Of a stretch of DNA of 64,000 bases, positions 9,642 through 62,062 are shown piece after piece. A program made the position numbers and the translations under genes. Each line of letters begins with the position of its first letter. Position 1 is the first letter of the stretch. The notes under the pieces were generated by a model that saw only the letters and a program-made list of their open reading frames with translations, did no database searches and was not told the origin of the DNA. This DNA is from Vitellaria paradoxa (lineage: Eukaryota > Streptophyta > Magnoliopsida > Ericales > Sapotaceae): the NCBI GenBank assembly GCA_019916065.1, contig JAINTL010000033.1:124001-188000 (forward strand). Direction: 5' to 3'.

Positions 9642-9645
9642 GGTC

Positions 9646-9678
<33 letters not shown>

Positions 9679-14161: not shown

Positions 14162-14200
<39 letters not shown>

Positions 14201-29800: not shown

Positions 29801-32800
29801 CTACACTTACTACAAAGGTAATATCAAGCCTGGTATGTGAAAGGTAAATTAGTTTGCCTACTAACCTCTGATACCTTTCCCTGACAACTAATTTTCTAGC
29901 CTCTTCTATTCTCTTCCTTGCTTCAATAGGAGTCTCACTTGGTTTGCAACCAAGCATGCCAGTTTCAGTCAGAAGATTAAGTACATACTTTCACTGAGAA
30001 ACGCTGATGTCCTTTGATCCAGTCACCTTCATTCCCAGAAAGTACCGCATCTGGCCTAGGTCTTTGACTTCAAACTTGGTTGCTAAGGCCTCCTTCAGTC
30101 TTTCTATCTCCACTTGATTATCACTGGTGGGAATAATGTCATCAACATACATAATCAGGATTGCCTTCTTTCCATCTTTGGACTGCTGAAAAAACATTGT
30201 ATGATCTGACTGTCCCTGCCGATTGTGAGAATATATTGTGTATATTCTAAATTAGGCATGATTGTGGTGTATATTTTAAATTAGGCACGATTGTAGCTGT
30301 ACATATATTATAGGCGTGATTGTCATTTCCTTTTTGGTTTAGGAGTTAGGGCTATATAATCTAAGGTTTTATTGTAATCAATAAACAAGAAAGATATATA
30401 AAAACTTATTCAGATTCTTACATGGTATCAGAGCCACATCCGAAACCCTAGGTCTGGCCTTTGATCTCTGATCTTCTTCGAAGTTCTTTCTCTGCGTTCA
30501 TGGCTGTCATTCGAAGCCTCCTCTGGTCTCCTTCGAAGTCGCGACAGTCCTCTGGTGCCTGGTCTGAAGTCGCGATTCAGGGCTCTTTCGTCTCTCTCTC
30601 TCTCTGGTTCAGATACTCAAACACACATCGTGGTTCGTCAGGCTTGGTCGACCGACGATTTGATCTCTGGTTCTGGTTCGTTGGTCTCGATCTCTCTTGG
30701 TCAATACATCATCACGGTCTCTGTGTTCCTTCGTCTGCTACATCTGATGTAAATCTCTCTGTGTGTCTCAGGATCTCTGGTTTGCTATTTTACCTATTAC
30801 ACTGAACCCCACCAATTGTATAACTTTGCTTCATTACAATGACAGACACCAAAATTCAAGCCATTAAATGCAAACTCACTGGTGACAATTATGCCTATTG
30901 GGCCAGTGTTATGAAGAATTTTATTCTTGGTCAAAAAAAATGGGGCTATGTATCTGGTTCTGTTCCTCGTCCATCAGACCCGAAAAAAGAAGATTATCTG
31001 ACTTCCTGTGACACTTGGGATTGTGACAATGCCCAAGTTCTGACCTGGTTTCATAACTCTGTGGATGATCGCATTGGTGTGATTATGTCCAAATATAGTA
31101 CTGCAAAAGAGGTGTGGGAGTATTTACAGGGTGTTTCCCAGCAGTCCAATTTTGCCAAACGGTATGAATTGGAAACAGCTATTCAGGGTGCTCGCCAGCG
31201 GGATAAATCTATTCAAGACTTCTATAAATCTATTCCTGGCCTCCCCCACTCCTCTAGGCAGGTTTGCCGTCTTCAACGTGCTCTGTATGGTTTGAAACAA
31301 TCTCCTCGTGCTTGGTATGATCGCTTTCAGACTGCTGTTACCGAGCTTGGGTTTCACCCTTCTGCTTGTGACTCTGCTTTGTTTCTGAGACATTCATCCG
31401 TTGGTTTTGTTGCTCTTTTACTATATGTAGATGATATGATCATCACTGGCTCTGACTCTTCTGCTATCTCTGAGGTCAAGCAACATCTCTTCCGTACCTT
31501 TGACATGAAGGATCTGGGTCCATTGCGATATTTTCTTGGTATTGAGGTTGCTTCTTCTCCAAAGGGCTATTTTCTGTCCCAGGCTAAGTATGCTAATGAG
31601 GTAATTCACCGTGCTGGTCTTACTGATACGAAGATTTCTGCTACACCTATTGAGCTCAATGTGAAGCTCAACTCTACTGACGGTGTCCCACTAGATGATC
31701 CCACTTTATATCGCGAGCTTGTGGGTTGTTTAGTTTATCTGACTGTCACTCGTCCTGATCTTGCTTATGCTGTTCATGTGGTTAGTCAGTTTGTTTCTTC
31801 TCCTCGCTCTACCCATTGGGCTGCATTGGTTCGCATTATTCGCTATCTTAGGGATACCATCTTTCAAGGCTTACTGTTGTCCTCTACTTCCTCTTTGGAC
31901 TTAGTAGCTTATGCTGATTCTGATTGGGCTGGTGATGTTACTGATCGCAAGTCTACGTCTGGTTTCTGTATGTTTCTTGGTGATTCCTTGATTTCTTGGA
32001 AAAGCAAGAAACAATCAGTTGTTGCACGCTCTACTGCCGAAGCTGAGTATCGTGCTATGGCTCATGCCACTGCTGAGATTGTTTGGCTTCGCTCTCTCCT
32101 GTCTGATTTGGGTGTCCCTCAGTCTTCTCCTACCTCTCTCTATTGTGACAACCGCAGTGCTATTCAGATTGCCCACAATACTGTCTACCATGAACGAACG
32201 AAACACATTGAGATTGATTGTCACTTTGTCCGTCAGCATCTACAATCTGGCTCTATCTCGCTTCCTTTCGTCTCTTCGGCTTTGCAACTTGCGGACTTCT
32301 TCACCAAGACTCACACTATCCCTCGATTTCGGTTTCTTCTTAGCAAACTCTCAGTGTTTTCTGCTAAAACACCTTGAGTTTGAGGGGGGATGTGAGAATA
32401 TATTGTGTATATTCTAAATTAGGCATGATTGTGGTGTATATTTTAAATTAGGCACGATTGTAGCTGTACATATATTATAGGCGTGATTGTCATTTCCTTT
32501 TTGGTTTAGGAGTTAGGGCTATATAATCTAAGGTTTTATTGTAATCAATAAACAAGAAAGATATATAAAAACTTATTCAGATTCTTACACCGATATCCTT
32601 GGTCTTTAACTACTTTTGCAAATCTATCAATCCAAACTCTAGGAGATTGTTTGAGTCCATATGGAGACTTCTTGAGTTTGCAGGCTAGATTTTCTTCACC
32701 CCTTCTACAAAATCCTGGTGGCAACGTCATGTAGACTTCTTCTTCTAGCTCTCCATTTAGGAAGGCATTTTTGATATCTAATTGTTGAAGCGGCCAATCC

Positions 32801-35800
32801 AGTTTGGTTGCCAAAGGCAATAGGTTTAAGTGAACCTTTTTGCCACCAATGGGGCTTTGTATCGCTCTAATGTGCCATCCGCTCTATGCTTCACTGTGAA
32901 CACCCATTTGCATCCCATCCGTTTCTTCCCTCTAGGTAGATCCATCACTTCCCAAGTCCCATTTTCTCCAGTGCTCTCATTTCTTTCATTACTTCCTCCT
33001 TCCATTTAGAAGTCTTCAAGGCTTCTTGAATATTCTTAGGAATTTTTATACTGTCGAGGTTAGATGTAAAAGTACGACACCTTATAGACAAAGCATTGTA
33101 AGATACAAACTTTGAAATAGAGTGGAGAGTACGCAAACGAGGTTGTTTTCTGAGAGCAATGGGTAAATTAAAATTATCAGGTTTAGATGTGTTTAAGAGA
33201 GATTCTGTCACTTGATTTGAAGTTGAAGGAGACTCATGATTACTTGAATCTCTCACTAGGTCCAATTCTTGTAGTGCTTCGGGTGTGGGTTTCTCTCGAG
33301 ACTTAGATTCTAGCCTCCTTGAGTAAACCAGAATCTCCTTATCACTTTGCTTTCTTGCATCTCCTCCTAAATTCAAGTGTCCTTCAGTCCATGGCAGAGG
33401 AGAGGAAGACAGTGTAGGAGTAGAAGTAGTGTTTTGGATGGGAGGATCAAAATCAACATCAAAGTAAAAAAACCGAGCTTCACTAATATTCTCCCCCTGA
33501 AGTGAGGACCTTGAGTAGTAGGGAGTGTTTTCAAAGAAGCTAACATTAAGGGTGACAAAGATTTGGTAGCTGGATGATAACACTTGTAACCTTTCTCGAT
33601 AGGAGAATAGCCAATAAACACACACTTGAGGGCCTGAGGATCCAATTTATTGCGATGATGAGGATGAACATGGACAAAAGCTGTACAGCCAAAGACTTTG
33701 AGAGAGAGGGTAGAACTCAGCCAAGTGGTAGGAAAGGACTCTTGAAACTTTTGGATTGGTGTAGCAAATAATCGGACTCTACTTGGCATTCTATTGATGA
33801 GATAAGTAGATGTTAGAATGGCATCGCTCTAGAAGAGTTTGGGCATGTTGGTAGTGAAGAGTAAGGCTCGGCCAACTTCAAGAATGTGTCTGTTTTTTCT
33901 TTCGGCAACCCCATTTTGTTGTGGGGTGTCAACATAAGAGCTTTGGTGGATTATACCATGTTGTAAGATAAGGTAAAAAATGGGAAAAAAGAGGGTGAGA
34001 AAGAAAAGAATGTGTAGAAGATGAATTGTATTTTTGATGACAAAGAAAATGGTAGCTTTCGAGAGGCTACTGCTCCCCCTCTAACCAAGAGGGTCTCCAA
34101 AACCAAATCACAAATCTGACCCCTTCCTCACCTCCCCTAAATACCGCATTCTATGCTAACAAAAATAACAGACTTTGCCACGTCACCCCATTCTAGAAGG
34201 TGACTGGCTGTAAAAAAAATACCTACTGATAAAATATAAAAGACCCAAAACCATAACAATAATACTCCTTATATGTAACCAACAAGCCTGCAATTTTGCA
34301 ACCAACAAAACATTCTTCCAGCATCCAGGGCCGTCTGTTAGGCTTGATCAGCCTATTTCTTGCTCTTCTTTCCCTGTCTATGGTACACAAATTTAACCTG
34401 GGGCTTAACTGTCAACATAAGAGCTTTGGTGATTATACCATGTTGTTGAAGATAGGTGCCCAATATATGGTTAAAATATTCATTGCCATTATCAGTTTGC
34501 AAGATTTGGACTTGTGTGTGGAATTATGTTTGGATCATGGTATGGAAATTGATAAACACCAAATGAGCCTAAGTTTTGTCATGTAATAGATAAACCCAAC
34601 AAATACGAGTGTGATCATCGATAAAAGTAACAAACCATTTTGTGTGGGTTCGATTAGGAGTGTGATACGGACCCCACAAATCACTGTGAATTATAGAAAA
34701 TGACGTAGAAGGTTTATAAATAGATGTAGGAAATGAAGCACAATGGTGTTTTGCAAATTGACGAGACTCACATTGAAAATCAAAGGCCATTTTATTCGAG
34801 CAAATAGAAGGGAACAATCGTTTCATATATTTAAAGTTTGGATGACCTAGTCTAGAATGCTATAGCAAAAGTTCACTAGCTTTATATGTCGGATTACAAG
34901 CCATGGTGTGGCATAAGCTACTCTTATTATCTTCTATAAAATAGTAGAGACCCTCACACTCCTTAGCACTGCCAATCGTCTTCCCTGATGATAAGTCCTA
35001 TAAAACACAATGAGAGGGAAGAAATTTAGTAGAGCAATTGGAGTCTTTTGTCAACTTGCTAATAGACAATAAATTAGAAGATAATTTTGGGACATGAAGA
35101 ATAGATTCCAAAGTAATAGAATCTGAGATACAAATACTCCTTTTTTAGGCTGTTGAAGATAGTGACCCATCTACAATTTTAACTTCTGAATGGCCAGCAT
35201 ATGGTGAATATGATGAGAACAAGTGATAGGCATCGGTCATATAGTTCGAAGCCCCAGACTTGATAACCTAAGGAGTATTAGTCCAGAAAGTGGTATCAAA
35301 TGCTTGCGAAAAATTACGTCGTTGGGCTAAAAAGCCTGAAGGAACACTGGTGGATTGGCTCGATGCTTGGAAGCTAGAGAAGAGCTCATAGAGTTTTTCT
35401 AACTGGTCGAGATTGAAGCCATCACTGGCAGTAGACTGAGTGCTCTTCTCCTCTTGAATTTTCTTGGTCTGGTAGTCCGTAGTAGTCTGATATCCCCAGA
35501 TTTTAGTGTTATGTCTAGGTTTCTAATCGACTAGCTTCCTATGTAGCTCCCATCAGGTGTCCTTGGTGTGACCTGATATTTTACAACGCTTACACTTGGG
35601 ACGCCCTTTTCTGTTGCCTTGAACGAACCTTGGAGGTGAACTGCGGATTATTAGAGTTGACATTTCAGAACCAGAAGACGTATTCTCCTTTAACATCACC
35701 TTCCTTCTATTTCTTCTCGCTTGACCTCTGGAAAAATTTTCCGAATTGATGGCAAGGGGCGTATACCAAGAATCCTTCCGCCAACATCATCCAGGTTGCG

Positions 35801-42776: not shown

Positions 42777-42823
42777 GGGCCCGTTTGGAGTAATAAAAAA
42801 CAAGATAAATCAAGATAAATCGC
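42777..42823 (+). repeat. Left terminal inverted repeat of the giant element
   Basis: GGGCCCGTTTGGAGT is followed by an A-rich spacer and AACAAGATAAATCAAG. It pairs with 58644-58690 in inverse orientation. Confidence 0.85.
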
Positions 42824-42894
42824 GGTTTGAAGTTACGTGGGCGTTTGGTGTTATTTTCCCAAACCACATTTGTTGGAGTTGAACAGTACCCGAT

Positions 42895-43718
42895 CCGTGG
42901 GAACGGAATGCACATTCCGTTCTAACGCATTCAAAATTTTGACAGTTCACTCTTGTCCGAAACCTAAAACGCCCTCGTTTCACTGCCGGCGTCTCTGTTC
43001 TGCCACCGTCCTTCCCTTCTGCTAGATTCTCAAGTAAGGACCGAGAATCTTTCAATTCAAAGAAGCAAGAAACCCACAAATCAGATCTACATTGAGATGA
43101 GGCCGGCCTCCCCCTACTGGTTACGAAGCAGCACCAAAAAAGCCCCAAAACGGCAATCTATCACCGTCCGGCGATACTTTCTCCGGCGAAGATCCACCCT
43201 CCGTCAGACAAGCTCACTCGGCCATCTTCAACCCCCACGTGCTCGAAGGTACTTGTTTCGATCTCATTCCGATTTGGTTTCAATCTCATTCCGTTTCTTA
43301 TCTACTCGCATTTGTCATGGATCTCTATAACCGTACGACTAGTTCGGCTTTGGTAGTAAAGTCCCCTTCACTTTGATTTGATCATTTGGGTCTTGATTGA
43401 ATGCTTGTATTTGGCTTTGAACGTCTTTAATTTCTTTTTTATGGAGCTTTGAGTACTCGTTTGTCATGGGATTTGTATTGTCTGCGAACTGCACCTGATC
43501 CGTTGGGGCGAAGTTCTGATTGTTTGCCGTGGGAACGAGCGAAGCTCATCCGTTCTAACAATTCTGGGCAGAACCTGATCCGTGGGAACGAGTCGTTGGC
43601 ACCCGTTCGAACCGAGCATGGCAGAGGCCGATCCGTGGGAACGGTCATGAGAAACCGTTAGAACGGTAATAACCAGAATGTAAACCGTGTGCACGGCTTG
43701 TGGTTTGTCATTCTAACG
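42895..43718. repeat. Left subterminal repeat array (CCGTGGGAACG motif)
   Basis: Copies of CCGTGGGAACG are at 42895, 43527, 43580 and 43633, with a decayed one at about 43500. They alternate with partner words of the form CGTTCTAACG or CCGTTAGAACGG (42918, 43551, 43655, 43711), CGTTCGAACC (43604) and the palindrome CCGTGTGCACGG (43685). Several motif/partner pairs form imperfect hairpins, the clearest being GGAACGGAATG-CA-CATTCCGTTC at 42900-42923. Confidence 0.85.
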
Positions 43719-43937
43719 TTTTCCACTAGTTCTATTACGTAGATTTCTAAATCCTTGCTCGCTTATGAACACATTAGCACCACTCACTGTCTTTATCATT
43801 TACGTTTCTCACTATGGTTGAATGGAAAAGTTTCTGTTTACACTTACATTTTTCAAAGTTCAAGAGATCACAAAATTCATATTTCAATTTTTATTCGCTC
43901 ATCAATTAATAAATTTTGGTCAATTTTTAGTTTGGTT

Positions 43938-45162
43938 ATGGACTCCACGGGCTCCCCGTTCTCGCCCTCAGATGAATTCCACAACGTGGAGATTAACATT
44001 GCGAGCAGTTCTCAAAGACGTAGGCAAATAAAACAACCCAAAGCAACTTGGGATTTTCATAAAACGGAAGTCCTACTCACAATTACAGCGGGTGTCATAG
44101 ACAACGGTCATAGGAGGGGCAACTGCCTATCCCCAGCTGGTTATAATTTCCTTGTAGCAGAGTTTAATCGTATAACATCCCAACAGCTCACCTTAGCGCA
44201 AATAAAAAGTCGGATGGTACAACTGGGTAAGGATTGGCGAACATGGATAGACTTCAAAAACCCGCACTCTACTGTAACTGGAATGGGCTGGAATCCGGTG
44301 ACGAATACATGGGATGCGCCGGATTGGTGGTGGGCCTCGCAGCAACGGGTACGTTATCATAGCAACTTCACAAATATCGACAATTTGCTGTTTTGTCACT
44401 TTTTGGAATTTATATAATTTTTTTGTTATTGTACAATGATAGTCACTCTTAATTGTTGTTGTTTCTTGCCAGAATAACTCTCGTGTCATGAGATTTAGAA
44501 ATCGAGGATTGGAGCATGCAGAGTTAATGGAAAAAGTATTCGGAGGAACCTCTGCGACTGGGGAATATCATTGGACTCCATCTGCCAGAAGTCCCCCACC
44601 TGAGGATACGCAACCGTCGGAAATGCAAGACCAAGCAGAATTTGTTGCCTCCGCCGAACCCCCTCCAGTTATCGATCCATGTAGTCAGGCTAATGTGGGT
44701 ATAGGGTCTGGATCGGGAGGAGTCCGGCGGCGGAGGGAAACTCAAGATGATATAGATGACGGAAGCAGTAGTCTTAGACGGCGCCAGAGCCATGCCAACC
44801 GAATGTCCCAATCTATAGAGGCTATGGCTGACGCCATACGAGGCAGAACGAATGAGGTTAGACTTGTCTGGGCTGAGCGTCCAAACTCAATGCAAGATTG
44901 TATCGCGAAAATGGTAGCCATGGAAGAAATTGACAGCACTTCCGACTTGTACCTATTTGCCATCGACTTATTCACGACCGAAGTGAACAGGGAGGCATTC
45001 ATGGGCCAACCGGACGATGCTCACAGGCTGAGGTGGCTGCTGTACCAACAACGTAAACACGAACAAACGCGTCGAGGGAGCAACAGTGGCCACAACAGCG
45101 CACCCTACTACCCTCCACCACCTCCGGATGACACATCCCCGAGCTACTTCCCCCCCTACTAG
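43938..45162 (+). CDS. Myb/SANT-like DNA-binding protein of the PIF/Harbinger element
   Basis: Two exons, 43938-44348 and 44473-45162, join at CGG/GTACGT...TTGCCAG/AAT to give 366 residues without a stop. Residues ~36-105 form a plant TE-type Myb/SANT-like domain (KATWDFHKTEVLLTITAG; LVAEFNRIT; QIKSRMVQLGKDWRTW). A basic RRRR patch, a helical middle (SIEAMADAIRGRTNEV) and a Pro/Tyr-rich tail (YYPPPPPDDTSP) follow. In PIF/Harbinger and Ping/mPing systems this second protein works with the transposase, binding element ends and assisting nuclear import. The frame is intact although its partner transposase at 45506-46987 is broken. The start codon chosen is the first ATG giving the domain a full N-terminus. 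An upstream in-frame ATG at 43755 would add 61 residues without similarity. Confidence 0.85.
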
Positions 45163-45505
45163 CATTAAGACAATTTTACCCATTACCGTGTATTTGATCT
45201 CTTACATGAGCACTTACACTCGTTTATGTAACATTTGATTTACTATTTGTAGGACGGATATTTCTTCTTAAACAACCTTGTATCCTAATGTTGGTTGCAT
45301 GTGTTTATTTTCGAAAAATTTACAGCTACTTTAACCCATAATGAATGGCATTCCTTTCTATCACTATAGCACACAATGAATGTTGTCACAAATTTAAGCT
45401 ATTGTTTTCATGCTTTACTTATGTGGAATATGTAAATTGTTATTCTACTAACTCAATTGTTCCTTTTGCAACATATATCTCAGCTAAGAGTTCTGACTCT
45501 ATACA

Positions 45506-46987
45506 ATGGCAAACGGCAGCGAGGACAACTGCCCAGTATTACAGGGGATCATCACGCGGTTCGTGCAAGATTATGATGCAATCTCCGATGCAAGCGCTAT
45601 GTCGGCCGCTGCGATAGTGTATCAGTACTACTCCCAAAGTCTTACAAAACAGCCCTGCCGCACGTCAGCCCTTCCTGGTCGCCTTTGGATTAATGAACTT
45701 TTGTCAGGCCACCCGCGGCGTTTGTTTGAAGCATGCCGTGTAACCAAACATGTGTTCACGGCGTTGTGTAACGAACTAACCACAAAGTACGCTCTTGGTC
45801 AGGGCCCTAGAGCGACCTTAAGCGTAGAGGAGAGCGTTGCTATTTTCCTACAGACATTGGCAAATAATATGTCCAATAGGGCACTCCAAGAATGATACCA
45901 ACACTCAGGTGAAACCATATCCCGTCACTTTCGCATGGTGCTATCGGCAGTGAAACGTCTTAGCCGGGATTACATTAAGCCACGAATGGAACAAACTGTG
46001 ACGCATTCTCACATCCTAGACGACTCTCGCTACTTGCCATTCGCGGTACGCCCTACATTTTTTGTTTTTATATTAGAGGATTCACTACGCCGCTGTTCGA
46101 CAATGATGACTTTCGTGTACTATATCCATTGTAGGACTGCATTGGCGCGTTGGACGGCACTCACGTCCCTTGCATCCCTCCTCTCAACAAGGAGCTTGCT
46201 TTCTGCTGTCGAAAGGGTGGGTTCACGCAGAATATTCTAGCGGTTTGCGATTTCAACCAACGTTTCGTGTTTATCTCATGTGGCTGGGAAGGTAGTATGC
46301 ATGATTCTCGCGTCCTGAAGAATGTCTTGTCAAACCCGAATGAGGACTTTCCGTACCCTATTGAAGGTGGGACCTTCTACGACAAATGAAGTTCACCTTT
46401 CTTACGCCAAGTTTTAATGTTGAGTCACATTACTTGCACTAAATTTACGAATGTTGTATCTCACATATTTTCTTACACCTGTTGTAGGTAAATACTATCT
46501 TGTCGACGCGGGGTACCCCAATAGGAAAGGCTTTCTTGCGCCGTTCAAAGGTGAGCGAATGCATGCACAACAATTCAGAAGCGGGGGCCGACCCAGGAAC
46601 CCTAGAGAGCGTTTCAATGAGGTCCACACAGCCTTACGAAGTGTCATCGAACGTACTTTCGGTGTCTGGAAAAACAGATGGGCTATATTACGAGATATGC
46701 CACCTTACGACTACCGGATTCAGGTAGACATCGTCGGCTGCTCAATGGCGCTTCATAATTTCATACTAGAGCATGGCAGAATCGATGACGTGGATGGCCA
46801 CGCAGTTGCTTCTCACGTTGATGTCCCGTCATCGTCAATGCAGTCATCCGCGCAGTTTGACTCGGCTGACCTCTGCCCTGATACGGAGCCGGCGGATGTC
46901 GAAGACCTGCCAGGTGACCGTTACATGGATGCCCTACGCGAGCGAATCTGTAGAATGGTTACGCAAAATAGGGGGATAGGTCGCTAA
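45506..46987 (+). pseudogene. PIF/Harbinger DDE transposase, inactivated
   Basis: Exons run 45506-46045, 46135-46386 and 46488-46987. Exon 1 is the N-terminal region with the helix-turn-helix-like segment (HPRRLFEACRVTKHVFTALC; LSVEESVAIFLQTLANN). An in-frame TGA at 45893-45895 follows NRALQE, where family members usually carry Arg (QER), consistent with CGA to TGA. The frame then continues unbroken (YQHSGETISRHF). The DDE_4 triad is present: D in ALDGTHVP, D in GSMHDSRVL, E in IERTFGVWKNRW. The exon 2/3 junction lacks a GT donor: after FYDK the sequence is TGA, whereas the next exon (YYLVDAGYPN) needs one more base before it. Two independent lesions make the copy non-autonomous. A poly(A) signal lies at 47093-47098. 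Confidence 0.9.
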
Positions 46988-48497
46988 AGACGTATCAATG
47001 GGTCGTTGAATGTACTTTGTTTCCTTAGAACTGGTTATGTGTAGCCAAATCCAATGTCCTGGGTTCCGGAAGATGATGTCAAAGAGCATTGTAATAAAAT
47101 ATTTTGCTATTTCCTCACAAAATCTCTGTCTCTCTCTCTCTTTGTGTGTGTGTAATGGCTCGTACGTCAACGTACAATTCGATACGTTCTTTATTTATTT
47201 TCAGGGATCTAAACGTCTAATCGAAAACTTGACGCATGATGCTTGTTTTAAATTACAAAAATGATATGATGTTTTCTTACATATTCATACTTTTTTTTTA
47301 ATAAATGCCTACACTGTTTTTATTTTTTACAAATATTTTCACAGTTTTTGGAGTTTTAATTTAGAAACTTTTATATATAAAAATTATCAGTGTTTTATTA
47401 GAAGTGTGACGAATTATGTTTTTATATAAAGCAAGTAGAAGGATAACCAAAGTGGCGAGAAACAAAAATATTAACTATTTAATACATATAACAGTTGCAA
47501 ATATATAAATGTCAAGTCAATGACCTAAATTGTTACAAATATACAATTACAAAAATACGAATCATGATACGCAAAATTAACAAGTGATAGTAACGAGGGG
47601 TGGTGCTGATTATTACTTGTTACATACAAAAATACTATGTCTCTATTTTCAAAATTTTTAAAATTTTTAAAAGCATTTTAAAAATTATTTAAAAAAAAAA
47701 CATTACCAATTATGTTTCAAATTTTAACCTTTAAAAATTAAAAAACTAAAGAGCAAGATGGTTAATTGGAGATTGCCTCACCCACACCCCAACCCATTCC
47801 TTCCAGCATTCATCCCCTAGATCACTACATTCCCATGCCCCATAAATTAGGTTAAGTTCATTTTCTAGTAATAATAATTATAATAATAATTATTACAAAA
47901 ATAGAAAGTTCCTCCCCTGCCTCTCTCTGTGGGTTGTTAGGTTAGTATTTTCCCTTTGTACTTGCGTTTAAATTTGGAGGAATAGAGCCCAGGGTGACAA
48001 CAAAGGTTCCATGAGGAGAAGTTGAGGTCCAAGAAAATACTTCAAACAAACAAACAAATAAATACGTACAGTGAATTGTCACCTCCCATCCCCATCCCCA
48101 TCTTGTCCTATCCTAAAAAAATATCATATGCAGTTTGGATTAAGAGTGTTTTTATTTAAAAAATATAAAAAGGTAAGAACATAATAAAGAAATTATTTGT
48201 TTATCAGAAATAAAATTATAGTAATTGGATAATAGTATTTATGTAATAAAAAAACCCTTAAATGTCATTTCGTTTGCACGGATATTTTGGTTTTCTACTT
48301 TCTATATATGTTTTATGCTTTGCGAATCTCATAATAAAGAAAACAAAAAAAAAAATTTCTTTGACATTTTTGCGTTTCTGTGTGTTCAAATTTTCTTTAT
48401 TTCGTGTTGAAAACGCTCGAAATAACTTTTCGTCATTTTTATTTCATATACAAACTCATTTTATGCTTTCTAAACCAACGTTTAACAAATATCAATC
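46988..48497. other. Non-coding interior of the giant element
   Basis: It holds the transposase 3' region with AATAAA at 47093-47098, a (CT)n/(TG)n run at about 47128-47152, and then AT-rich DNA. No coding or RNA gene was recognised. Confidence 0.6.
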
Positions 48498-50330
48498 TCA
48501 AGATACTCGGTTGCTGATGTTTTGATACAGCTCTTTGACCTGTGTATTCCATTTATCTATGGCAGTGTAGTTTTTCTTTCCCTTTAACCTGCATCTCACA
48601 TTAATTTCGTAGTCAAAAAATAAATCAGAAAAAAAAAAAAACAAAGATGAGAGATTGAGCTTTGGGTACAGATCCAAAATAAGCATTACTGCTAAGCGTT
48701 TAGAGTGCAATCGAGAAATCACAAAAATTTTAGATGATTAGTGAAAGTCCGTTAAAACCGATCTTCGTGGCTTCGAACGAAATCTTGGTAAAAGCTTTTT
48801 GGGATTTCCAACATTTTTTTAAACTCCACTTGTGCCTTACGTTCTCCCTAAAATTGACGTGCAAGAGACAAATTTTTTTTCAATAAATTACGCATCGAAC
48901 AGAAGCTATCAATAGATGAAATAAACTCATTTTTACAAATGAGGTCAATAAAAAATGGTTTGAACCTCTGAGGGTTAAATTAATTGAGAACTTCATCATT
49001 TGGTAATGAAACACCCACCCAAAAAAAAAAAAAAAACAACCATTCTCTTATTAACATAAACAAATCCTAGTCATTAACTTTCATATGAAGGGGATGCGAA
49101 ATCTTGTGTAAGGCTTGATGAGCTTGAGCTCCACTTCAGTCCAGACATTGTTCAAGAGATCTTCTATGTAATTCCGAATAAATGGGTCATCCATTATTGT
49201 CCTCCTATTAGTCTACAGACAATCCAAACTTCAGAGAACAATAGTAGAGAGCCCTGCATTAATAAAGGCCATCATACAGATATAGGTGATTAGTATAAAA
49301 TTAGTATCCAGTAGCCTAACATTGACGATATGTTCAAAACCCAATATCTCATTTTGTTGATATGTAGCAATTAGTTTTGTCATTGCCAAAACTTCAGGCT
49401 CATTTTTATATCACACGGAGGGAGGGAGGGAGAGACAGAGAGATCAGACACCGCATACAAAATTAAGCGAACTACATGAAAAAATGTAGATAAGATTAAA
49501 AACACTTACGGCTTCGCCTCCTGACCAACAAATGGGTTAACTTCAGATTCCATTGTCATATTAGAAAAACCAAATATCTGCAACAGAGAGGCCAATAAAA
49601 AGTAAATTTTGCGTGTTTAAAATGAATAAAAATAGTATATCGCATAACATTGAAACACATTAAACATATCGTACACTTCGCGAGCTTAAGTAAATTTGTA
49701 TTCTTGTTCACCGTACTGTTAACACTTCATTACTTCTCTTTGCTGTCAATTCTAATTCAGCTGAAGGTAATATTTTGTATTCAAAATGGAACGTTAATTT
49801 AACATTACCAAAATCAACTTAAAACCAGAAGAGACTGTATGCCTGAACAGGGTGTGAAACTAATGAGTTGGGAAGCGTACTGTATGCACAAGATCCGCGT
49901 ATGGTTACCAGCTTCATCATATTTCTTAAATGCTTCAAATAAATCTGTGGACTTACAACTGTACATCTGTAACATAGCGTCCCAAAAATTAACCCTATAA
50001 ATCACAAAAAATAAACAATTTCTTTCCTTAACCTCTTTGTAATTCTTCCTCTCAACGTACATTCGAATCCCAATTGCATACACCTCCAAGAGTTGTGTTC
50101 CTTTGTTTTGATCATCTGTACCATCTTCTTTTTTGACAAGATTTGTGTAGTTCCTTCGAGATCTAATTAGATGCAATGAATAAATCTCATTAGTTTTTGC
50201 TAAAATAAACTGAAATGTCATATAAACACGTACTTTAATCATTCACCCATATCTAACCAAATAAGGGTGAGCTTAAGATTTGTCTTCAACCAGAGACTCT
50301 GTGCAGGAGAGTGCAGTATTGACACCTCTG
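48498..50330 (-). pseudogene. Captured CSN2 (COP9 signalosome subunit 2) pseudogene, C-terminal half
   Basis: Minus-strand segments match successive parts of plant CSN2 in the right order. They are SLWLKTNLKL near 50300-50245, ISKELHKSCQK with EDGTDDQNKGTQLLEVYAI at 50164-50029, TDLFEAFKKYDEAGNHTRIL at about 49950-49875, NMTMESEVNPFVGQEAKP at 49577-49510, EPEVLAMTKLIATYQQNEIL at 49411-49318, [18 protein letters not shown] with [15 protein letters not shown] at 49206-49088, and AIDKWNTQVKEL...NISNRVS plus stop at about 48563-48498. Introns are retained (GTAAGT at 49509, CAG at 49578), so this is a DNA-level copy, not a retrocopy. Lesions include one extra A in the A-run between SCQK and EDG, a stop after RIPFI, missing middle exons and no recognised N-terminal exons. 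CSN2 is a core PCI-domain subunit of the COP9 signalosome; this copy cannot encode it. Confidence 0.88.
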
Positions 50331-53300
50331 CGTTGCTAAAAAAAAAAATAACAAACCCAAAATAAACAAGCAAACTCTTCTGCATATTTTTCCTGCGGTT
50401 GCTCAATTGGATATTTGGATCCTCGATTCAATCCTATAAACCCTTTCAATGGTCCACTACAGGGTCCCAACCTTAACAACCGTTGATGATGACAACATCG
50501 GTCAAAACAAAAGGACCTGAAGTGAGAAAAATCCAAACATAAGACAAACCATCCAACACAGTGCAGCAGCGGCAGCAGCTTATTACATGTAAGGCATATT
50601 AAACAAAGATCACATTCCATCTCATTTTCACACAGGCAGAACAATTGTGTATCTAGCATAGTTTGTGGTTTTTTTTTTTTCTTTTTGTTTTTAATTACAG
50701 TTCCTATCATGTTATGAACATGTATTCCGATTTGAACTTAAAATTTCAAATTGATCAAAAGCAGGTTAAGAAATAAGTATTAAGAAAATGGAACCCAAAA
50801 GAAGAAGGACAGAAAACACGTAAGAGGAGGGTAGAGGAGGAGAACATCATTTAATGTTTCCAACTAATATTCTTTTTTGAGAGGAAAACAAAGTTCAGCC
50901 TACTGAAAACCTTAGACTTTGGAGCATAGATAGATTTGTGAATTCACTACATCGAACATGCATTACATTTGCAGATTAGGGAACCACAAAGTAAACTGGC
51001 AGACAACATATAATCGTATACGAAATTAGTTAAAGAAACGGTAACATCTTTCATCACTGCAAAACTGTAATGAAAATATAATATGGATTGGCAATAAATC
51101 TCAAGGTGCACGCAAGTTGACTTAGACATCTTGAGTTACCAAAGAGAGAGAAAGATACAGAGAGCGACATACATGGAGTGGCTGCCATGTAACTGGCAGC
51201 GCTTCTGTCATCATCTGCAATGGCTGCTAGTTGCACTCGAGGAGGCAATTAATTAGCAGAGAAGTTCAGTATTTGCAGCATTTCTCCCAAATTCAGCAAA
51301 CAACCTGCAAGGAGATCGACTGAGCAACTTCCTAAACATAATGAGTAATGTTAGGTGTCGTGTATGTAACGTATAACCACGTAAAGAGTTTTCCCCAGTA
51401 GAAGTATAGCATGAGCAAACAAAAATGTGATGCAACGCAATGCTATTTTCCTAATTCCTTTTGACATAAATGATAGCAAAATGTCGAAATGAAATTTTAA
51501 TTCAACAGTTGTGTGCCAAAGTTTGTAAGCAAATCAATATAAAAACCAGTCATAGAGTGACCAACTTACATGTCGTCAATGTAGCCACCGTGATTACGCG
51601 ACAATGGTCCGCACTCGAATAGAAAAACTGCATGAATCGAGAGGTACGATTCCAAAACGGGAAACACAATTTCCCATTCATGGGCTTTCAACATTGAACA
51701 TGAAAGTAATTGGCAATAAAACAGTAATGACACAGTCAAACCGAAGGTATCAGCTGTTTCCATGTTAACATAAGAAATCAAACAACTTGAAATCCAACTT
51801 GAAACGTTTGGTAGTACTACAAACAAAAGATCTTCAACTTAACCAAGGATCGCCATGGTAAATATGAGAAACATTTGGACATAGCGCACATTAAATGAAA
51901 GATTTCGAGAGTAATGCATAACAGATGCAGCAGTTAACCAAAAAAAAAAAAGCAAGCTTGACATCAACAGCGGTTGTAAGTTTCCATTCAACTAGGAGCG
52001 ACTGAATTGGCAAAACGAAAATTTGAGCCCCATGCCAAAGTCCGGACGCCTGTAGGTAATATCGGCCTGCACAACAAAACAGAATAGGGAAATACATGTT
52101 ATAAGTCAAAACCATTGTTACCCTATGTAAATTTGTAATGCATTATGATGTGTGATTAGAAAACTGAGAAATCTCTAGTAAATACGTTACTTCAAAGAAG
52201 ACACTACATGGTAATGCAAAGGCAGAGGAATACACATTATTTGACTGTATAGGACATTTATAATATAAATCGGGCAGAAGTGGAGGCCTACAATGACTTA
52301 TTTCACTAGCACGGTTGTGTATATATATAAATCGTAGAATTCACAATAGTGCACCACTTGGGTGGGAATGCACGTGAATGACAAACAATTGCAATGTGTT
52401 AGGACCATATAAGGGATAAATAAAGGTTTGTTCCGCAGTAAAAGCATTAGTGAAAGGCTTGCATCGTTGCCCGAGAAGAAGTAACATATATGGACATTTC
52501 TCTCACAGCGACAAAACACCAACATTGGAATAACTGCGTTGAAATTGATGAGGGGTTGCTATATATCGAAATTGGTAGCAAGTCCTTGGTTTACATATTA
52601 TTTAGTTGATTACTCTTTTAGAGGATAACAAAAACAAAAGAAACGGGGAGGGGGCATTAATTTCTAGACCTGTCTTTTGAATGAGGAAGACCTATTACCC
52701 CAATATTTGTATTTAAATGCTTTTCTACACATAGCAAGAAAATTGTATAGATATGTCATATTCCATGCAAACTATAGTCTGTACCCCATCTTTCTTTTCA
52801 TACATATTTATCGTAATGGTTCTAAAAGCATTTATTCCAATGTAATGGCTTTTACATATAGATATACACCCAAATTGGTACTCATGTACTTTTGTCGGTA
52901 TTTCTTAATGAATGCATGGGTTACATTATAAGTCTCTTAGTGAGTAAGAAATTTATCTAAAACTGTTTTTTTGGGACAGCATTTCGCATAGCTTAGAAGG
53001 TGAAACTGGAAAATACAAAGGAAAAAGAAACCCTCTCAAAAAAGAAGAAATGGCACGGGGCTTACGTAGTTGTTCATTTCGACCTAAGTGTGAACCTGAA
53101 CTCAGGGGATGAAAGTAAGCGATGCTATTGGGCATATATGATGTATTACTTCGTAAAAGCGTGAACAGTTTAAAGATCTAACCAAGTCTAGGCCATCTAA
53201 CAGAGATAGTCTGATTGTTACCTTTCCAACAGAGATGCAGTTGTCTACGGGGGCCCTTGGTTGTTATCCCAGTGGCCCGGGGGGAAGCTCGGCCACTGTT

Positions 53301-53340
53301 CACCCATCCACCTTGCCCACAATTGTTGGTTGGCGTACAT
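50331..53340. other. Interior of the giant element with unassigned exon-like pieces
   Basis: No family was recognised. Minus-strand pieces have plausible splice edges: TTGTGCAG before GCCGATATTACC at about 52066, a GTAAGTTGG donor at about 51571, and a GTATGTCG donor near 51174 after a frame reading QLAAIADDDRSAASYMAATP. They may be further captured host exons or remains of another element gene, but I cannot connect them into one protein. Confidence 0.4.
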
Positions 53341-54402
53341 CTAGTGCACTTCCGATCGCATGACGTCGATGGAGTACCGCTGGTAGTCCCTCCATTGTGC
53401 AGACGCAGCATGCTCGTGCTCCATTGATTGACGTTGAAGTTCTCTCCATTCAGCGTTTGCTTGCTGCTCCTGTTCAAATTGCAATGACAGGGCATCCAAC
53501 CGTGCCGATATGTCTACGGATGAGCTGCCGAGGCCCGTGTGCGATTCCGCGGTTGGTTCGGTTGTCTTCCTACGCTTACGTTGGGAGAGAGATCTATTTA
53601 GCGTATTTTCGTCGATTGGCTTTTCTTGGGGCAACATCTTCTCGTTGGGCGCAATGCGAATACCATCCCGTGTTACACACTTTGTTATGAACAAGCCAAA
53701 GGGCAGGGCAGCTGGGTTATGACCATTTGCTAAGTGGGAGTTTATAACCTCCCCAATCAAACGCCTAGCGCATATGGGCCTCCCAGTCATGATGGCTACC
53801 AGTAGCGACGCCCGTTCATGTGTTACGTCAGATGTGCGTTTCTGTGGAATTAGCGACGATGCAGATACGATATTAAGAATACGGAATTCGTCTTTCAACT
53901 CCTGCTGCGGGTATGTTGCTGTGGTCCACGGAGTACCGTGCTTGCTAATCAGGGGAAGGATATCCGCAGTGTCATACTCATCACCGTAGTGGTACGCTGG
54001 ATCCCGAACAACTGGTAGATGGAGGATGGTGCTAAAATGTGCAGGCCCAATGACATAGTCTCTTCCTTGCAGCTTTGACGAAATGTGTGGGCCATCAGGA
54101 TAGAATTCAATTTCTTTCAAGTTCGCATAGAACTCACGCACGAGTTCTTCGCAGGCCTGCCCCTCTTGGCTCAAGAATGTGCGCCATCCACGCCGGTCCA
54201 GCTCGCGCACAGTGCTGAGACTGCGAATTGCTGGGTCGTCGAAGGACAGCAAGCGCTCGACGACTACTGCCTTCTTGGAGTACTGGTCTGTGTACTTCGC
54301 TTGCGCATCTTCGCCGGTGAATCTATAGCGATCATATCCTGTTTTTTTCCCCGTGGCCTTCTTCGCTAGATGCTTGATACGCCTGCCAATGGAGGATGCC
54401 AT
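53341..54402 (-). CDS. Putative plant transposon protein (PF20167-like), 353 aa
   Basis: A single intact minus-strand frame starts at the ATG at 54402, which is preceded by CGTTATTGCAG, a possible splice acceptor. The N-terminus is basic (ASSIGRRIKHLAKKATGKK). The central part resembles the 'putative plant transposon protein' domain: CEELVREFYANLKEIEF at about 95-112, GRDYVIGPAHFSTILHLP, HERASLLVAIMTGRPICARR and LPFGLFITKC. A KRRKTTEP nuclear-localisation-like stretch and a Gln/Glu/Arg-rich coiled C-terminal tail follow. This domain family is abundant in plant transposon-rich DNA and its function is unknown. It is one of only two undamaged non-Copia TE frames in the window. It reads opposite to the transposase and lies between the CSN2 pseudogene and the right end. 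Confidence 0.7.
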   Translation of the reverse strand: MASSIGRRIKHLAKKATGKKTGYDRYRFTGEDAQAKYTDQYSKKAVVVERLLSFDDPAIRSLSTVRELDRRGWRTFLSQEGQACEELVREFYANLKEIEFYPDGPHISSKLQGRDYVIGPAHFSTILHLPVVRDPAYHYGDEYDTADILPLISKHGTPWTTATYPQQELKDEFRILNIVSASSLIPQKRTSDVTHERASLLVAIMTGRPICARRLIGEVINSHLANGHNPAALPFGLFITKCVTRDGIRIAPNEKMLPQEKPIDENTLNRSLSQRKRRKTTEPTAESHTGLGSSSVDISARLDALSLQFEQEQQANAEWRELQRQSMEHEHAASAQWRDYQRYSIDVMRSEVH

Positions 54403-55830
54403 CCCTGCAATAACGGCGAAAAAAACCAAAATAAGGAAAAATGGTTAATAACTCGACATATGTATGTCAAAAGAAAATGATGATGCAAGGTTTTACGTGT
54501 CACTTTGATGTTGGAAAATGAAAACTTATGAGAAGTAAAATTGATATGATGGTTGAATGCATGTATAAAAGTGACACGTGATCAAAATTTAATTGACAAT
54601 TTCAGAGTGCCACGTGTAGGAAATTGTATGGTACAAATAGCAGCTTTTCTTTTTTAAAAACATCGAACCAAACTCGTCGGATCTAACTTTGATAGTGCAT
54701 GTAAAGAGTTTAACTTTGTTTAGAATTTGAAATATATGGATACTGTTACCGTTAATCTGGGGAAATCTTGTGGTGTTTCTGGAAATTCAAAGAAACGAAC
54801 AGTTGGTTTAAAGCGAAATTATTGGAAAATGTATTCACCAAATCTGGTGGTTATGTATTTGGTTGTCACAAATTTCAGCAGCATATACCATCTAAGCCAC
54901 AAAATGCGTAACTGCTTGTAGACCACATAATAAATTCAACGAAAACAACATAATACACCCAAACACTTGCACATGCATGAAAAAAAAAATGTATAACCGT
55001 CCTAATCAGCACAACCATAAGCATAACTGTCATGGTATATAGTAAGAAAACCAGGATGACCATTAAATCATTCTGAAATAAAGCAAGTGAAGGGTCGGTT
55101 TGGCATGCAACAATTCTAAAAAAAACTCTGTCAGTCTCTCTAACAATCCCTCTACCTCTAATTTTCTCGCTATCAGTAATTGCAAAATATTTCAATATTT
55201 TGCCAAAAAAAAAAAGAAAGCAGAAATTAGGTAACCCGAATGTGTATCATATTCCTCGTGTTGAAAGTTTTTGAACGAATACCATTGTCGCGAATTTTTG
55301 TGACTTGGTTTGAATCTGTGGGCTACGAATTTGGAAACCTTTCCCATGATTTGCTACTTTTTAGGAAAAAGAAAGGCGCCAAAATTAACCCCAAACCACT
55401 TTTTTATCTCAACTTATATTTTTCTTTTCTTAATCAAAACGGGGCCGAAGTCACAACCGTAGTAGCTTTGTTGAATGAAGTATCTTTAGTTAGCATGTTT
55501 ACCCTAATTTGTGGAGTTGCAACTATAACGGATGTTCAGTTTCGATTTATGGCAAGAGATCAACTATAAAAGTAAGCTACCTATTAATATGAGTTATGAA
55601 GAGAGACAGGAAAAAAGAAAAAATCTGCATATGAATAATTAAGTTCCGATTTAGGAAAAAAACTTATAATCAGGTGCGTAGAGATTTGCTTTCATAGGCC
55701 CTTTTTTTTGGGTAATTACTTTGGTAGGCCTTGAGTAGTAAAGGTGTTACATTTAAGCATGTTGAGATGAAACAAAATACGAATAGTGGAGCTTTGCTTT
55801 AGTTGAGGTCATATGTTGGGGAGACTAGTG
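54403..55830. promoter_or_regulatory. Upstream region of the PF20167-like ORF with paired G-boxes
   Basis: CACGTG occurs at 54575-54580 and 54611-54616, 36 bp apart and about 175-215 bp upstream of the minus-strand ATG. G-boxes bind bHLH/bZIP factors in plants; use here is speculative. The rest to 55830 is AT-rich with no recognised gene. Confidence 0.3.
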
Positions 55831-55840
55831 AATTTTCTAT

Positions 55841-56560
55841 ACCAAGATGTCTTTGTCATAGTTCGGCGTTTAGTCCCTACGATCCATTGCTTTAGTTATG
55901 ATAAACTAAGTAGACATCTATAAGAAGAAATATTACGGTGTCGTTGTTTGGTAGTCTTATAGTTGTAGCAGACGAAATGAAAGATAAAGTGAATGGTAAG
56001 CTAAAGGTGTGGAGAGAAGCATTAGAATTATGCAAATTTAGGATAACTAGGACTAAACCTGAATATACAGATTGTAAATTTAACAGTAACAAAAACTACA
56101 AATAAGGAATGATGAGCATTGGAGGTCAAAAATACTTAAAAACGAAAAAGTTCAATACTTACGCTTATTAGTCAAGCTGGGGCAGTGATTAGTGAGGAGG
56201 TTACGCAGAGAATTAAATTTAGGTGGGTTAACTGGAGAAAGGCTCCGAAAATTTTATGTAATCGTCGAATATTTGTACGTTTAACAAGAAAGTTTAGGCA
56301 TACACAATGGTTAGAGGTACTATATTTTGTGGTTGTAAATGTTGGTCAAGGCACCAAATAGGACGAGTGATCATAGTATCCAAATCGCGAGTAAAGTGAG
56401 GGAACTAAGTACAACAAAAGTAATATGGATAGAAATGGTAAGGATATATATGGCGCGACGTGTTTTGATGGAAGGAAATGGTCCTTAGCCAAACAGAATG
56501 GAGAAAAGGCTGACTTGAGCTGGTTTGAAGTTTCCTAGTTTGGCAAAGATAACCAGCGAC
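55841..56560 (+). mobile_element. RTE-like LINE relic inside the giant element
   Basis: Stop-riddled plus-strand frames match the RT C-terminal part of plant RTE-type LINEs: VADEMKDKVNGKLKVWREAL and RITRTKPEYTDCKF at about 55970-56080, then AVISEEVTQRIKFRWVNWRKAP at about 56185-56245, then CNRRIFVRLTRKF. It ends in sequence resembling the conserved basic tail (KQNGEKADLSWF). It is heavily decayed. Confidence 0.65.
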
Positions 56561-57650
56561 CTTTTTTAATATATATTGAGTGAACTTACTACCTGAAGAA
56601 GTGCGATAACCCAAATAAATCATTAACTGACTAATCTAATCAACAAAAGTCCTAAAACTTTCACACAGGCATTTGTTTAAGGGAAAGGCAATTCGAAGTA
56701 AAATGAGGACCATAACATGTACAAGTGTTAAGAGTAAACAAGGCCACAACGAGTAAGAAAATATTAGTAAGATTGTTTTTATATTAATTTTAATTTTATA
56801 TATAGAGTATTATTGGCAGTAAATTTCGTAGCATGTACAATGTTATCATCCAGAAAATTGGCATAATGAAAAAAGGGAGCTAATGTGCAAATATATATCA
56901 GGAATGATCATTCTAACTAGATTTTCATTTTTTTATAGCATAAGTATTCTTGTTAGAGTGGCCAATCAATGCTATTAAGGGTTGAGTCGTGATGAAATCA
57001 TTAATTTGTTTTGTATCTATCCGTCACCTAAAACTGCATTGGAATGAAATCATCTAATATAATAGATAAGCTTAGTTGCCAGTTAGTGGATTAATTAGAA
57101 GAAATTAAACATTTTTTTTGTATTCCACTGATAGCAAATAGAGTTACCAACATAGACCCCAGTGAGAGCATTGCCTGTGGGGGTTCGCCGATGAAAGATA
57201 ACTATCTCCAATGAGAAATATGTATAGTTTGAGCATGAAACACAGGATTTAAAATGGAGATAAGTAGCTCCAATGTGATAACACCATAACAACGGAGGCA
57301 CTGTTGGTTTGAGACATAATTCAGTCAACAGTGAACACAACCATTGTATCTCATAACAAGCATTGGCAGTAGACTTATATTCGACTTTGGTACTACTTCT
57401 ACCAACAGGTTTTTTTTGTTTGCAACTCCACGAAATAAGAGTATGCCGGAGATAATTAGATAGTACGCACTAATTGATTTCCAGTTGGGGTCAATTGACC
57501 CCCTGCCACCACGTGCATCCGGCCCTGAGGATGTCCACTTAATTAATTCTCATTATGTAGTTATCTATCAGAATTTCCTATTTCGTATGATTTGCGTCTG
57601 TCAGATTGATGTAAAATTCATATCCGAGATGCATCAAGAACAAGATAAGT
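56561..57650. other. Unassigned interior DNA with a hAT-like tip
   Basis: The reverse complement at about 57528 reads CAGGGCCGGATGCACGTGG, a typical hAT-family terminus, but the partner end was not located. No coding region was recognised. Confidence 0.4.
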
Positions 57651-57653
57651 GAA

Positions 57654-58472
57654 CCGTGGGAACAATACTCACCAAAAAAAAAATTAAAAATTAAAAAAAA
57701 TGGGCAAAATTGAGATCAAGACAAATGGTTCCAATGTTAAGTCTCATATATCAACAAATCCAAAAGACACCAGAATAATTCTACTGAGCATTGGTAAGCC
57801 CTTAAAAATAGATAGAATTGGGCGAAAATCGGAAAATAGGGGAGTTGCAGAGATGGCGTACCTGGAAATGAGGGAGTTGCAGAGATGGACGAAAAGCCCA
57901 ACTTGGTGGTTGGCAAGAGTATGCTCCCGTATTCGTTGGAAAGAAATTCCCAGGCGAGATCAAGTTGAGGCTCCTGTTCTTCGTCCTTCAAACCCTAGCG
58001 AGAAAGGGTTAGTTAGCTTAAATACAAATCGTGTGTAAATAAGGCAGCCATTGGACAAACCAAACAACATACCTCAGTTGATTTGGGTGGGTCTCATACT
58101 CCTATTGGCTTCCAATAGGCTACGGCGGCACTGGATTAGAGGTGGCGTTCACTGCCGGCCATGGAGGAACAGAGGAGGAACGAAGAACAGAGAATCCCTG
58201 AGTCGATTTTTTCGACACGGGTGTTTATGGATGAACCGTGGGAACGAATAAATTGAAACCGTTCCCACGGAATAGCGAGTCCCAAGGTAGTAGTCAAGGT
58301 GTTGAGGGGGAGTATACGAGGGATTGGGTTCTCGTGCTGGCGTTAAAAGGTTAGAACGTTTTCAGGCGTTCCGTTCCCACGGAACTGGTTTTACCAGACG
58401 CAAGCCATCCTTACCTGCAGCAGTTCAAAATTGTAGGCCGTGGGAACGACGTAAGGCAAACCGTTCCCACGG
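57654..58472. repeat. Right subterminal repeat array (CCGTGGGAACG motif)
   Basis: CCGTGGGAACG occurs at 58236 and 58438 (truncated at 57654). The inverse, CCGTTCCCACGG, occurs at 58259, 58371 and 58461. The pairs 58236/58259 and 58438/58461 are perfect inverted repeats separated by about 12 bases. GTTAGAACG at 58350 mirrors the left-end partner word. Confidence 0.87.
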
Positions 58473-58643
58473 TTTGGTGGGCCGGCCACTATGGTACTCC
58501 TTCGGAAGTTTTTATTTGGGAAAACATGATTGCCTTCAGATTTTTTATTTTTTTAAACAAAATATTGAAGTTTTTTGAAATTAGTAAAAGTGAGGATGTG
58601 AAAATGTGTGATAGAGAGTTTTAGTGATTTGTAGAAGTTGTTA

Positions 58644-58690
58644 GAGTTTTATTGTGATTTATCTTGTTTGTTAGGACACCAAACGGGCCC
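58644..58690 (-). repeat. Right terminal inverted repeat of the giant element
   Basis: Reverse-complemented, it reads GGGCCCGTTTGGTGT, then AACAAACAAGATAAATCA. The first 12 bases and a 15-base inner block are identical to the left end. Confidence 0.85.
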
Positions 58691-60392: not shown

Positions 60393-62062
60393 ATGAGCGG
60401 AGGAGGAGTTGGGAAGACAGTGTGCGTGACAGGGGCATCGGGTTACATAGCCTCTTGGGTGGTGAAGCTGTTGCTCGACCGTGGTTACACTGTCAAAGCC
60501 ACCGTCCGCAGCCTCAGTCAGTACACTTCTCCTAATTTTCTCCCTTCCGCTCTGCATTATCTCTACTTGTCATATTTTCGTCCCTTATTATTGTTGTAAT
60601 TTTTAAATTTCTGGGTTTGATTTCAATGACCTGAACGTATTTGACTGAGTGTTAATTTTTGGGTTCTGATTTTTCACTATTAATTACTTCTTTCTTTCAT
60701 TATTGGAGTGCCAATCAGGAGAGGTCAGTCCATACCCACTCCTTGAATTTGTGTTTTAAATTTTTTAATAAATTGTTTTTTTTGTTTTTATTTTTTTCCC
60801 CTCTCATTCGATCCTGGACACTGGGTTCCAATCAAGTAGATACTCTAATATACGATGTTTAATCTCCATAAAAAGTGAAAGAAAGAGAGAAGACAAGGGG
60901 TCCCCCCCCCCCAAAAAAAAAAAAAAAGAAGCAAGAATCCCACTAGAAATAAGCACTAACTAATCCCATACTGGACATTTTTTTTCAGGGTAGAGAAAGA
61001 ATTCTTTTTTTGCCTCGAGTGTAAAATTCTTCCGAAAGTGAGAAAAACTTTTTGTTGAGATGTTATATGGGTTATCACAAAATGTTGTTTAGTCGATTTA
61101 GCTTATCATTGCAATTTTTAGTTAATTTATGCTATGGTATGTTTCACATCCTTAATTACAGTTTTATTTGTACTCTCTTTTCCTTTCTTTACTTTCTTCC
61201 CCCTCCCCCTCCCCTTCTTTCTTTTTGTTATGTAGTTGTGTTTTTTTTTTTTTTCATTTTCTTTATTTATTATTTATTATTTATTATTTTTAACTTTCAT
61301 TTTGAAACGGCTAAATTTGACTCTCTGATTGAACTACTTTTGTATCTTACAACCAGACTGTAACCCTTTTTATGTAAGCAATGCCCTTTAGTTTTCCTAC
61401 CATCTTAACCTTTAATGCAACTGAGTTGATCAGATTCATATCAAGTTATCAATAGAGTCATTAAATTTTACAAAGTTTTTTTTTGTCCTCTAATGATGTT
61501 GATGTATTTATTTTGGCATGTGAAGTAACTTTTTACATGTCATGATGGTTGAGAATTTGCAATGCTGCAATATTGGAGGTTCATTTCTCTTCTCTCTTGT
61601 GTAATCTTTAAGATGAGCTCAAACTGACAAGCTGTTATCCAGTTCTCTTGTTGTGACTGCAAACTCAGTCACTCAGCTGATCTACCAAAAATTTCTGCAT
61701 ATTTATCCTTTTCTAATTGTTATTACGATGTATATATATATATATACACATATATATTTATCTTTTTCTAATTGTTATTACGATGTATATATATATATAT
61801 ATACACATATATATTTATCCTTTTCTAATTGTTATTACGATGTATATACATACATATATATATATACATACATACATATATATATGTTACAGATGATCCT
61901 AGAAAGATAGAGCACTTACGTTCGCTTGATGGAGCCAAGGAAAGGCTACAACTCTTTGAAGCGAACTTAATGGACGAAGGATCTTTTGATCCTGTGGTTG
62001 ATGGTTGTGAAGGTGTCTTCCACGTTGCATCCCCTGTTCTCTTATCAGTCAGCAACCCACAG
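60393..62062 (+). CDS. Second cinnamoyl-CoA reductase-like gene, exons 1-2 (3' end outside window)
   Basis: Exon 1, 60393-60516 (41 codons plus one base), and exon 2, 61893-62062 (170 bp), join in frame to encode 98 residues. The Rossmann motif is [20 protein letters not shown]. Exon 2 reads [20 protein letters not shown] and then [14 protein letters not shown]. The intron positions, the phase and the 170-bp size of exon 2 are identical to the gene at 20867-41132. This, with shared wording such as [14 protein letters not shown], marks them as tandem duplicates on the same strand. Donors are GTCAGT and GTTCAT. Intron 2 contains a LINE and runs past 64000, so later exons lie to the right. No stop or shift is seen in the part visible. 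Confidence 0.88.
61701..61880. repeat. Three-copy ~56-bp minisatellite with (TA)n next to an exon
   Basis: ATTTATC(C/T)TTTTCTAATTG, then TTATTACGATGTATATA, is repeated at 61701, 61756 and 61813. Each copy is followed by a TA/CA dinucleotide run. The last run ends about 12 bp before the exon 2 acceptor at 61891-61892, replacing the usual polypyrimidine tract. Confidence 0.88.

Follow-up and report, generated by a model that had tools for sequence, protein, structure and literature searches.

A probable multi-copy family of giant PIF/Harbinger-type transposons with exchanged host gene cargo in Vitellaria paradoxa

Are the 15.9 kb between positions 42777 and 58690 of a 64,000-nucleotide stretch of Vitellaria paradoxa DNA (called the window in the following) a single PIF/Harbinger-type transposon? 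Such elements are usually regarded as compact and as sources of miniature inverted-repeat transposable elements (MITEs), and the original prediction, made from the letters of the window, read the interval as a giant member carrying a Myb-like gene, a DDE_4 transposase gene and host-derived exons. We can answer that the element moved as one unit to other sites, and it is very likely that 42777–58690 represents a single copy from a family of giant PIF/Harbinger-type DNA transposons with the mechanism and cargo exchange outlined below. We probably deal with a multi-copy giant family that mobilises itself and captures and swaps host DNA.

The evidence for movement as one unit comes from a second copy at C1:67932490 (regions L019, L021 and L022), which was found via a matching right end in L019, the genome searched comprising 667 Mb in 71 contigs. 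There the whole 15.9 kb is present in inverse orientation and differs from the window copy by 310 substitutions at 15,874 sites (1.95%) and 19 indel events, with an identity of 96.5–98.9% per kilobase throughout, while BLAST gives 97.6% with gaps and stops at base 25 of the left terminus. As the C1 copy carries the whole interior, including the exons of CSN2 (COP9 signalosome subunit 2), with even divergence, the inner segments moved together, and the single-element reading holds over the full 15.9 kb.

The two ends of the element are inverted repeats as predicted, with 37 of 43 positions identical, and their length is not the 45–47 bp stated before (Table 1). Both start with GGGCCCGTTTGG and have AACAAGATAAATCA in common. 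Within the window GGGCCCGTTTGG occurs exactly twice, genome-wide at 1,087 places (557 + 530) against 8 for the reversed control, and as it is also common to several unrelated terminus types this 12-mer alone is weak evidence. As a family label it was rejected, with only L019 belonging to the family among the 20 regions first fetched (18 from 100 listed genome places of the 12-mer and 2 flanking the window). The predicted subterminal motif cluster was confirmed at both ends: exact CGTGGGAACG is found nine times in the element, four of these in its leftmost 0.9 kb and five in its rightmost 0.5 kb, and is absent from the remaining 48,086 bp of the window as well as from 20 additional fetched loci of 10 kb.

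Searching the genome with a 35-place pattern that represents both termini and allows up to 3 mismatches gave 86 places (48 + 38) against 0 in the controls, and the listed places were sorted by eye. The right-type TGTCCTAAC is present at 18 of the 86 places, five of which are damaged inner right ends of a second form of the element (type II, described below), leaving 13 outer right ends. Left out were three places on C3 with the variant TGTGCTAAC and without left partner as well as the remaining places, mostly with AGTAAG-like and similar variants. It had been suggested to check if the two termini co-occur elsewhere at a consistent distance, and they do: ten of the 13 outer right ends pair with an inverted left-type terminus, with lengths of 15,914, 15,853, 15,985, 15,355, 15,814, 15,814, 19,227, 19,191, 19,229 and 23,221 bp, i.e. 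six pairs of 15.4–16.0 kb, three of 19.2 kb and one of 23.2 kb. The three unpaired outer right ends (C1, C3:12.54 Mb and C2:41.12 Mb) have the interior and no left terminus within 3 mismatches, and two further copies on C31 and C60 run towards contig ends, so that 15 loci with element interior were counted, which represent fewer independent insertions. Between the copies on C3 and C31 we counted 23 mismatches (0.14%) and 83 gap positions in 16.5 kb, and their left flanks are not the same, so the spread must have been recent.

Table 1: Features of the element at 42777–58690 (window positions).
Feature	Position	Strand	Remarks
Whole element	42777..58690	+	15,914 bp; genome C45:166777-182690; from termini, full-extent second copy and like-spaced terminus pairs
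Left terminal inverted repeat	42777..42819	+	43 bp
Left subterminal cluster	42896..43643	+	4 exact CGTGGGAACG, starts 42896, 43528, 43581, 43634
Myb/SANT-like gene (PF12776)	43941..45162	+	open in 43941-44352 and 44471-45162; putative splicing
DDE_Tnp_4 transposase gene	45503..46987	+	about 45503-46046, 46135-46368, 46488-46987; introns placed by eye
Cargo slot with intron-containing, decayed CSN2 piece	48181..50543	-	collinear exon matches; limits from type II comparison
Transposase_32 (PF20167) reading frame	53341..54402	-	353 amino acids, open; Pfam 5.4e-26
Copia-like RNase H fragment	57095..57469	-	by eye only; no Pfam match
Right subterminal cluster	58237..58471	both strands	5 exact CGTGGGAACG
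Right terminal inverted repeat	58648..58690	-	43 bp

We assign the element to PIF/Harbinger because it combines a DDE_Tnp_4 with a Myb-like gene, its termini start with G(N)5GTT and it has subterminal repeats. GGGCCCGTTTGG agrees with the motif quoted in PMC2213677, and the termini exceed the 14–25 bp stated there. Both predicted transposition genes were recovered by Pfam, the first with Myb_DNA-bind_3 (PF12776, 2.8e-11) as the second protein of PIF/Harbinger elements and the other with DDE_Tnp_4 (PF13359) on two stretches (8.3e-12 and 3e-11) as a transposase of the IS5/DDE_Tnp_4 type. From the left, the element has the Myb/SANT-like and DDE_Tnp_4 genes on the plus strand, followed by the CSN2 exons and a Transposase_32 frame on the minus strand and the copia-like fragment. 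In the type II copy on C3 the frames of the Myb-like, DDE and Transposase_32 genes are open (putative splicing), and in the copies on C6, C31 and C60 they are interrupted by small indels, either real or assembly errors. Between the window, C1 and C3 copies the Myb-like gene has a silent excess weaker than that of Transposase_32 (P 0.005–0.01). A mutated splice donor of the second DDE exon was considered and rejected, as the window and C1 copies read through and an intron fits 46369–46487 (by eye).

The host-derived exons of the original prediction turned out to be CSN2 exons, which follow the order of the gene on the minus strand and are separated by introns. CSN2 residues 175–212, 250–276, 298–326 and 326–373 match well, residues 127–164, 273–298 and 412–438 weakly but collinearly, and six-frame Pfam scans of 47001–58500 returned Transposase_32 and a sub-threshold PCI match in the CSN2 region and nothing else. 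Using window 48181–50543 as query (40 of 756 candidates scored), we found the CSN2 slot, whole or in pieces, at 10 of the 15 loci with 81–100% identity, including the distant C4 copies (81–86%) and the 23.2-kb copy on C9, where it is split by several kilobases. Among the scored candidates are also six scattered CSN2 pieces with introns at C6:11651308-11657531 (77–85%), with no family terminus nearby according to the 35-place pattern; this place is likely the CSN2 host gene and a candidate donor. Many short matches of 73–78% to one 200-bp stretch of the slot belong to a separate repeat.

The remaining five loci (type II) carry an intron-containing kinesin piece instead of CSN2, with 5.4 kb in the slot, and share with the window copy the blocks 1–5404, 7768–7935, 8902–11829 and 13890–15911 at 93–99% by block. 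Kinesin motor exons are present on the minus strand in the slot of the C3 copy (PF00225, 5.8e-35 and 4.4e-27), while a PDB search with the kinesin-bearing segment, run in a single frame only, returned nothing. In a genome search with this segment (40 of 2,311 candidates scored) its first 4.0 kb match the five elements with 99–100% and one other place, C7:53076920-53080752, with 93% and 96%, contiguous save for a 172-bp MITE. This place has introns and no family termini nearby by the same pattern and might be the kinesin donor. The MITE, a high-copy one inside the kinesin cargo (C3 type II copy, region L024, 7414–7585), starts with GGGCCCGTTTGG, has another interior and is absent at the putative donor place. 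As the more distant C4 copies carry CSN2, the simplest order would be CSN2 first and kinesin as its replacement. Two blocks are missing in type II, and their junctions show microhomology of 5 and 3 bp as end joining leaves it. In type II the right end is present twice, with CACCAAACGGGAAG and damaged at the inner one, where the window copy has CACCAAACGGGCCC, and with the outer one located about 3.26 kb further on; on C3 the part between them spans C3:44271361-44274619. Such a double end would fit a capture by fusion of neighbouring elements and resembles the hybrid capture by neighbouring elements described for Pack-CACTA (PMC13317346), which belongs to a different superfamily.

A third gene, the Transposase_32 frame, was not part of the original prediction. 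When we searched the genome with its protein (115 of 2,667 candidates scored), all 15 family loci were matched, several of them in pieces. The frame is full-length and free of stops in six (window, C3 twice, C7, C1 and C2:41.13 Mb) and broken or partial in the others. Beyond the 15 loci the best match among the scored candidates is C2:22404295 with 78%, and the remaining ones are more distant and mostly contain stops, in addition to a set with 26–30% that is mostly open. Silent versus replacement changes amount to 19:10 between the window and C1 copies (P for silent excess 2.5e-5), 7:5 between window and C3 (0.026) and 21:6 between C1 and C3 (1e-7), compared to a neutral expectation of 72% replacements; the three comparisons overlap in their branches and thus are not independent of each other. 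This shows purifying selection on Transposase_32 across the three copies whose frame could be read. Its silent divergence between C1 and the other two is 0.08–0.09, about four times the figure for the whole element, for which conversion from a diverged copy is a possible source. PF20167 is described as related to Athila ORF1, and the extra open reading frame of Athila-type retrotransposons belongs to the same family as the 353-amino-acid frame (PMC11728184), which in contrast is located inside a PIF/Harbinger-type DNA transposon family. A single-sequence AlphaFold model of the protein reached a predicted local distance difference test score of 41 and was not used.

From these data a mechanism can be proposed. 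The Myb-like protein and the DDE transposase would act on the 43-bp termini, and probably also on the subterminal CGTGGGAACG, leading to cut-and-paste of the whole 16–19 kb unit, which we infer from the protein and terminus families. DNA breaks inside the element or at its border would be repaired from a foreign template or by end joining, and the slot adjoining the transposase gene would thereby gain, lose and exchange host DNA, the exchange itself being visible in the comparison of copies. CSN2 would have been captured first and kinesin later. For Transposase_32, selected in three copies, we can offer the guess that it may aid the movement of the element or its evasion of silencing. More tentatively, one might think of a self-mobilising lineage defined by three core genes (Myb-like, DDE and the Transposase_32 shared with Athila) and an exchangeable slot, in which the third protein is required, as an accessory or by countering silencing, for so large an element to keep moving.

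Several observations weigh against a self-mobilising giant family. The window copy is flanked by TTT on each side, which would fit a duplication of 3 bp, although the site is T-rich, and is not the TTA/TAA target duplication. This duplication is also not seen at C1, where the BLAST alignment extends 11 bases beyond the right terminus into the A+T-rich flank, the left terminus lacks its first 24 bp and 29 bp of the right flank recur at the left, joining the element at a CAA common to both. A break at the left end followed by brief copying from the unoccupied target and then joining would leave such a structure, and a long target duplication with end loss might do so as well. The repeat and the loss can also be noted as traces left by an excision that was aborted or by an aberrant insertion. 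Moreover, the differing left flanks refer to the four groups that were read, and some loci may have arisen by segmental duplication or represent alternative haplotypes. Finally, the DDE gene of the window copy has one premature stop in its first stretch, in the C1 copy the Myb-like and DDE genes contain one stop each, and the DDE exons show no significant selection between the window, C1 and C3 copies (P 0.2–0.5).

These stops and the missing selection on the DDE exons, together with the many related terminus types in the genome, would be expected if the giants were passengers which move as one unit on the enzymes of shorter autonomous relatives, like other Pack-type elements. We consider this unlikely, as the three genes are open in the type II copy on C3 and the Myb-like gene has its silent excess; moreover, no shorter relative with the exact termini appeared among the pattern pairs, although no genome search with the transposase was made. 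That the segment was spread by segmental or assembly duplication and not by transposition is very improbable: C6:19.1, C7, C31 and C60 have a common left flank of at least 80 bp and the two C4 copies have identical lengths and scores, but the left flanks of the window, C1, C3:44.26 Mb and C6 groups differ and the homology breaks at the terminus. Least credible of all is a normal 5–6 kb PIF/Harbinger element swollen by unrelated nested insertions, immobile as a whole and large by accident, which could refer to the nested or composite Medicago giants (PMC2213677), the split slot on C9 and the MITE in the kinesin cargo, but was rejected because the whole 15.9-kb interior is present with even divergence on C1, contradicting it for the window interior, and is further opposed by the six terminus pairs 15.4–16.0 kb apart and the lack of long direct repeats of a long terminal repeat element inside the window element.

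How does a giant PIF/Harbinger family with its own transposition genes compare to known systems? Its large size as such is not new: in Medicago truncatula the PIF/Harbinger-like MtPH elements are given lengths of 2,180–25,288 bp (PMC2213677). The giant gene-carrying element of the original prediction was supported by the C1 copy, and the few kilobases that it gave as the usual size are exceeded by published elements as well. MtPH elements have the same DDE and orf1 genes, G(N)5GTT termini and subterminal repeats; their giants are described as nested retrotransposons or composites, in contrast to the many copies with one giant length and interior, host gene cargo and a third gene found here. 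The predicted parallel to Pack-type capture likewise stood as far as gene capture is concerned but is not confined to other superfamilies, as rice and maize are reported to have Pack-TYPE PIF elements (PMC8903248). These also have host gene DNA between PIF-type termini, as shown here for CSN2 and kinesin, but are defined as non-autonomous without a transposase gene of their own, whereas Myb-like and DDE genes are part of the unit described here, with open frames in the C3 copy. The main text of a review on giant eukaryotic transposons (PMC6431247) names Harbinger or PIF 0 times, and our literature searches on large or capturing PIF/Harbinger elements found no multi-copy giant family that combines transposition genes of its own with another conserved gene and exchanged host gene cargo, a prior description being possible. 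Thus the swapping of cargo on a common giant backbone seems to be new, as does the conserved third gene, large PIF/Harbinger and Pack-PIF elements being already known.

In this family near-identical backbones hold different host genes in one slot, for each of which the genome also has a candidate donor, and the order of events may be read from this: CSN2 first (77–85% to the candidate donor), kinesin later (93–96%) and then a very recent spread (0.14% mismatches). With this, gene capture and exchange by a DNA transposon become directly testable, and the conserved Transposase_32 frame is a natural setting for testing the role of that protein family.

Outside the element the window contains other repeats. 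At 30238–32461 two tandem arrays (29 bp x 2) of one unit flank a frame of 517 amino acids at 30824–32377, which by eye reads as a copia gag fused to reverse transcriptase and RNase H, and the segment is probably a copia-type element that has long terminal repeats and an internal deletion. Minus-strand frames at 32945–33828 resemble more pieces of a copia polyprotein (by eye), and near-perfect tandem arrays are located at 3506–3894 (129 bp x 3) and 61699–61860 (57 bp x 2.9).

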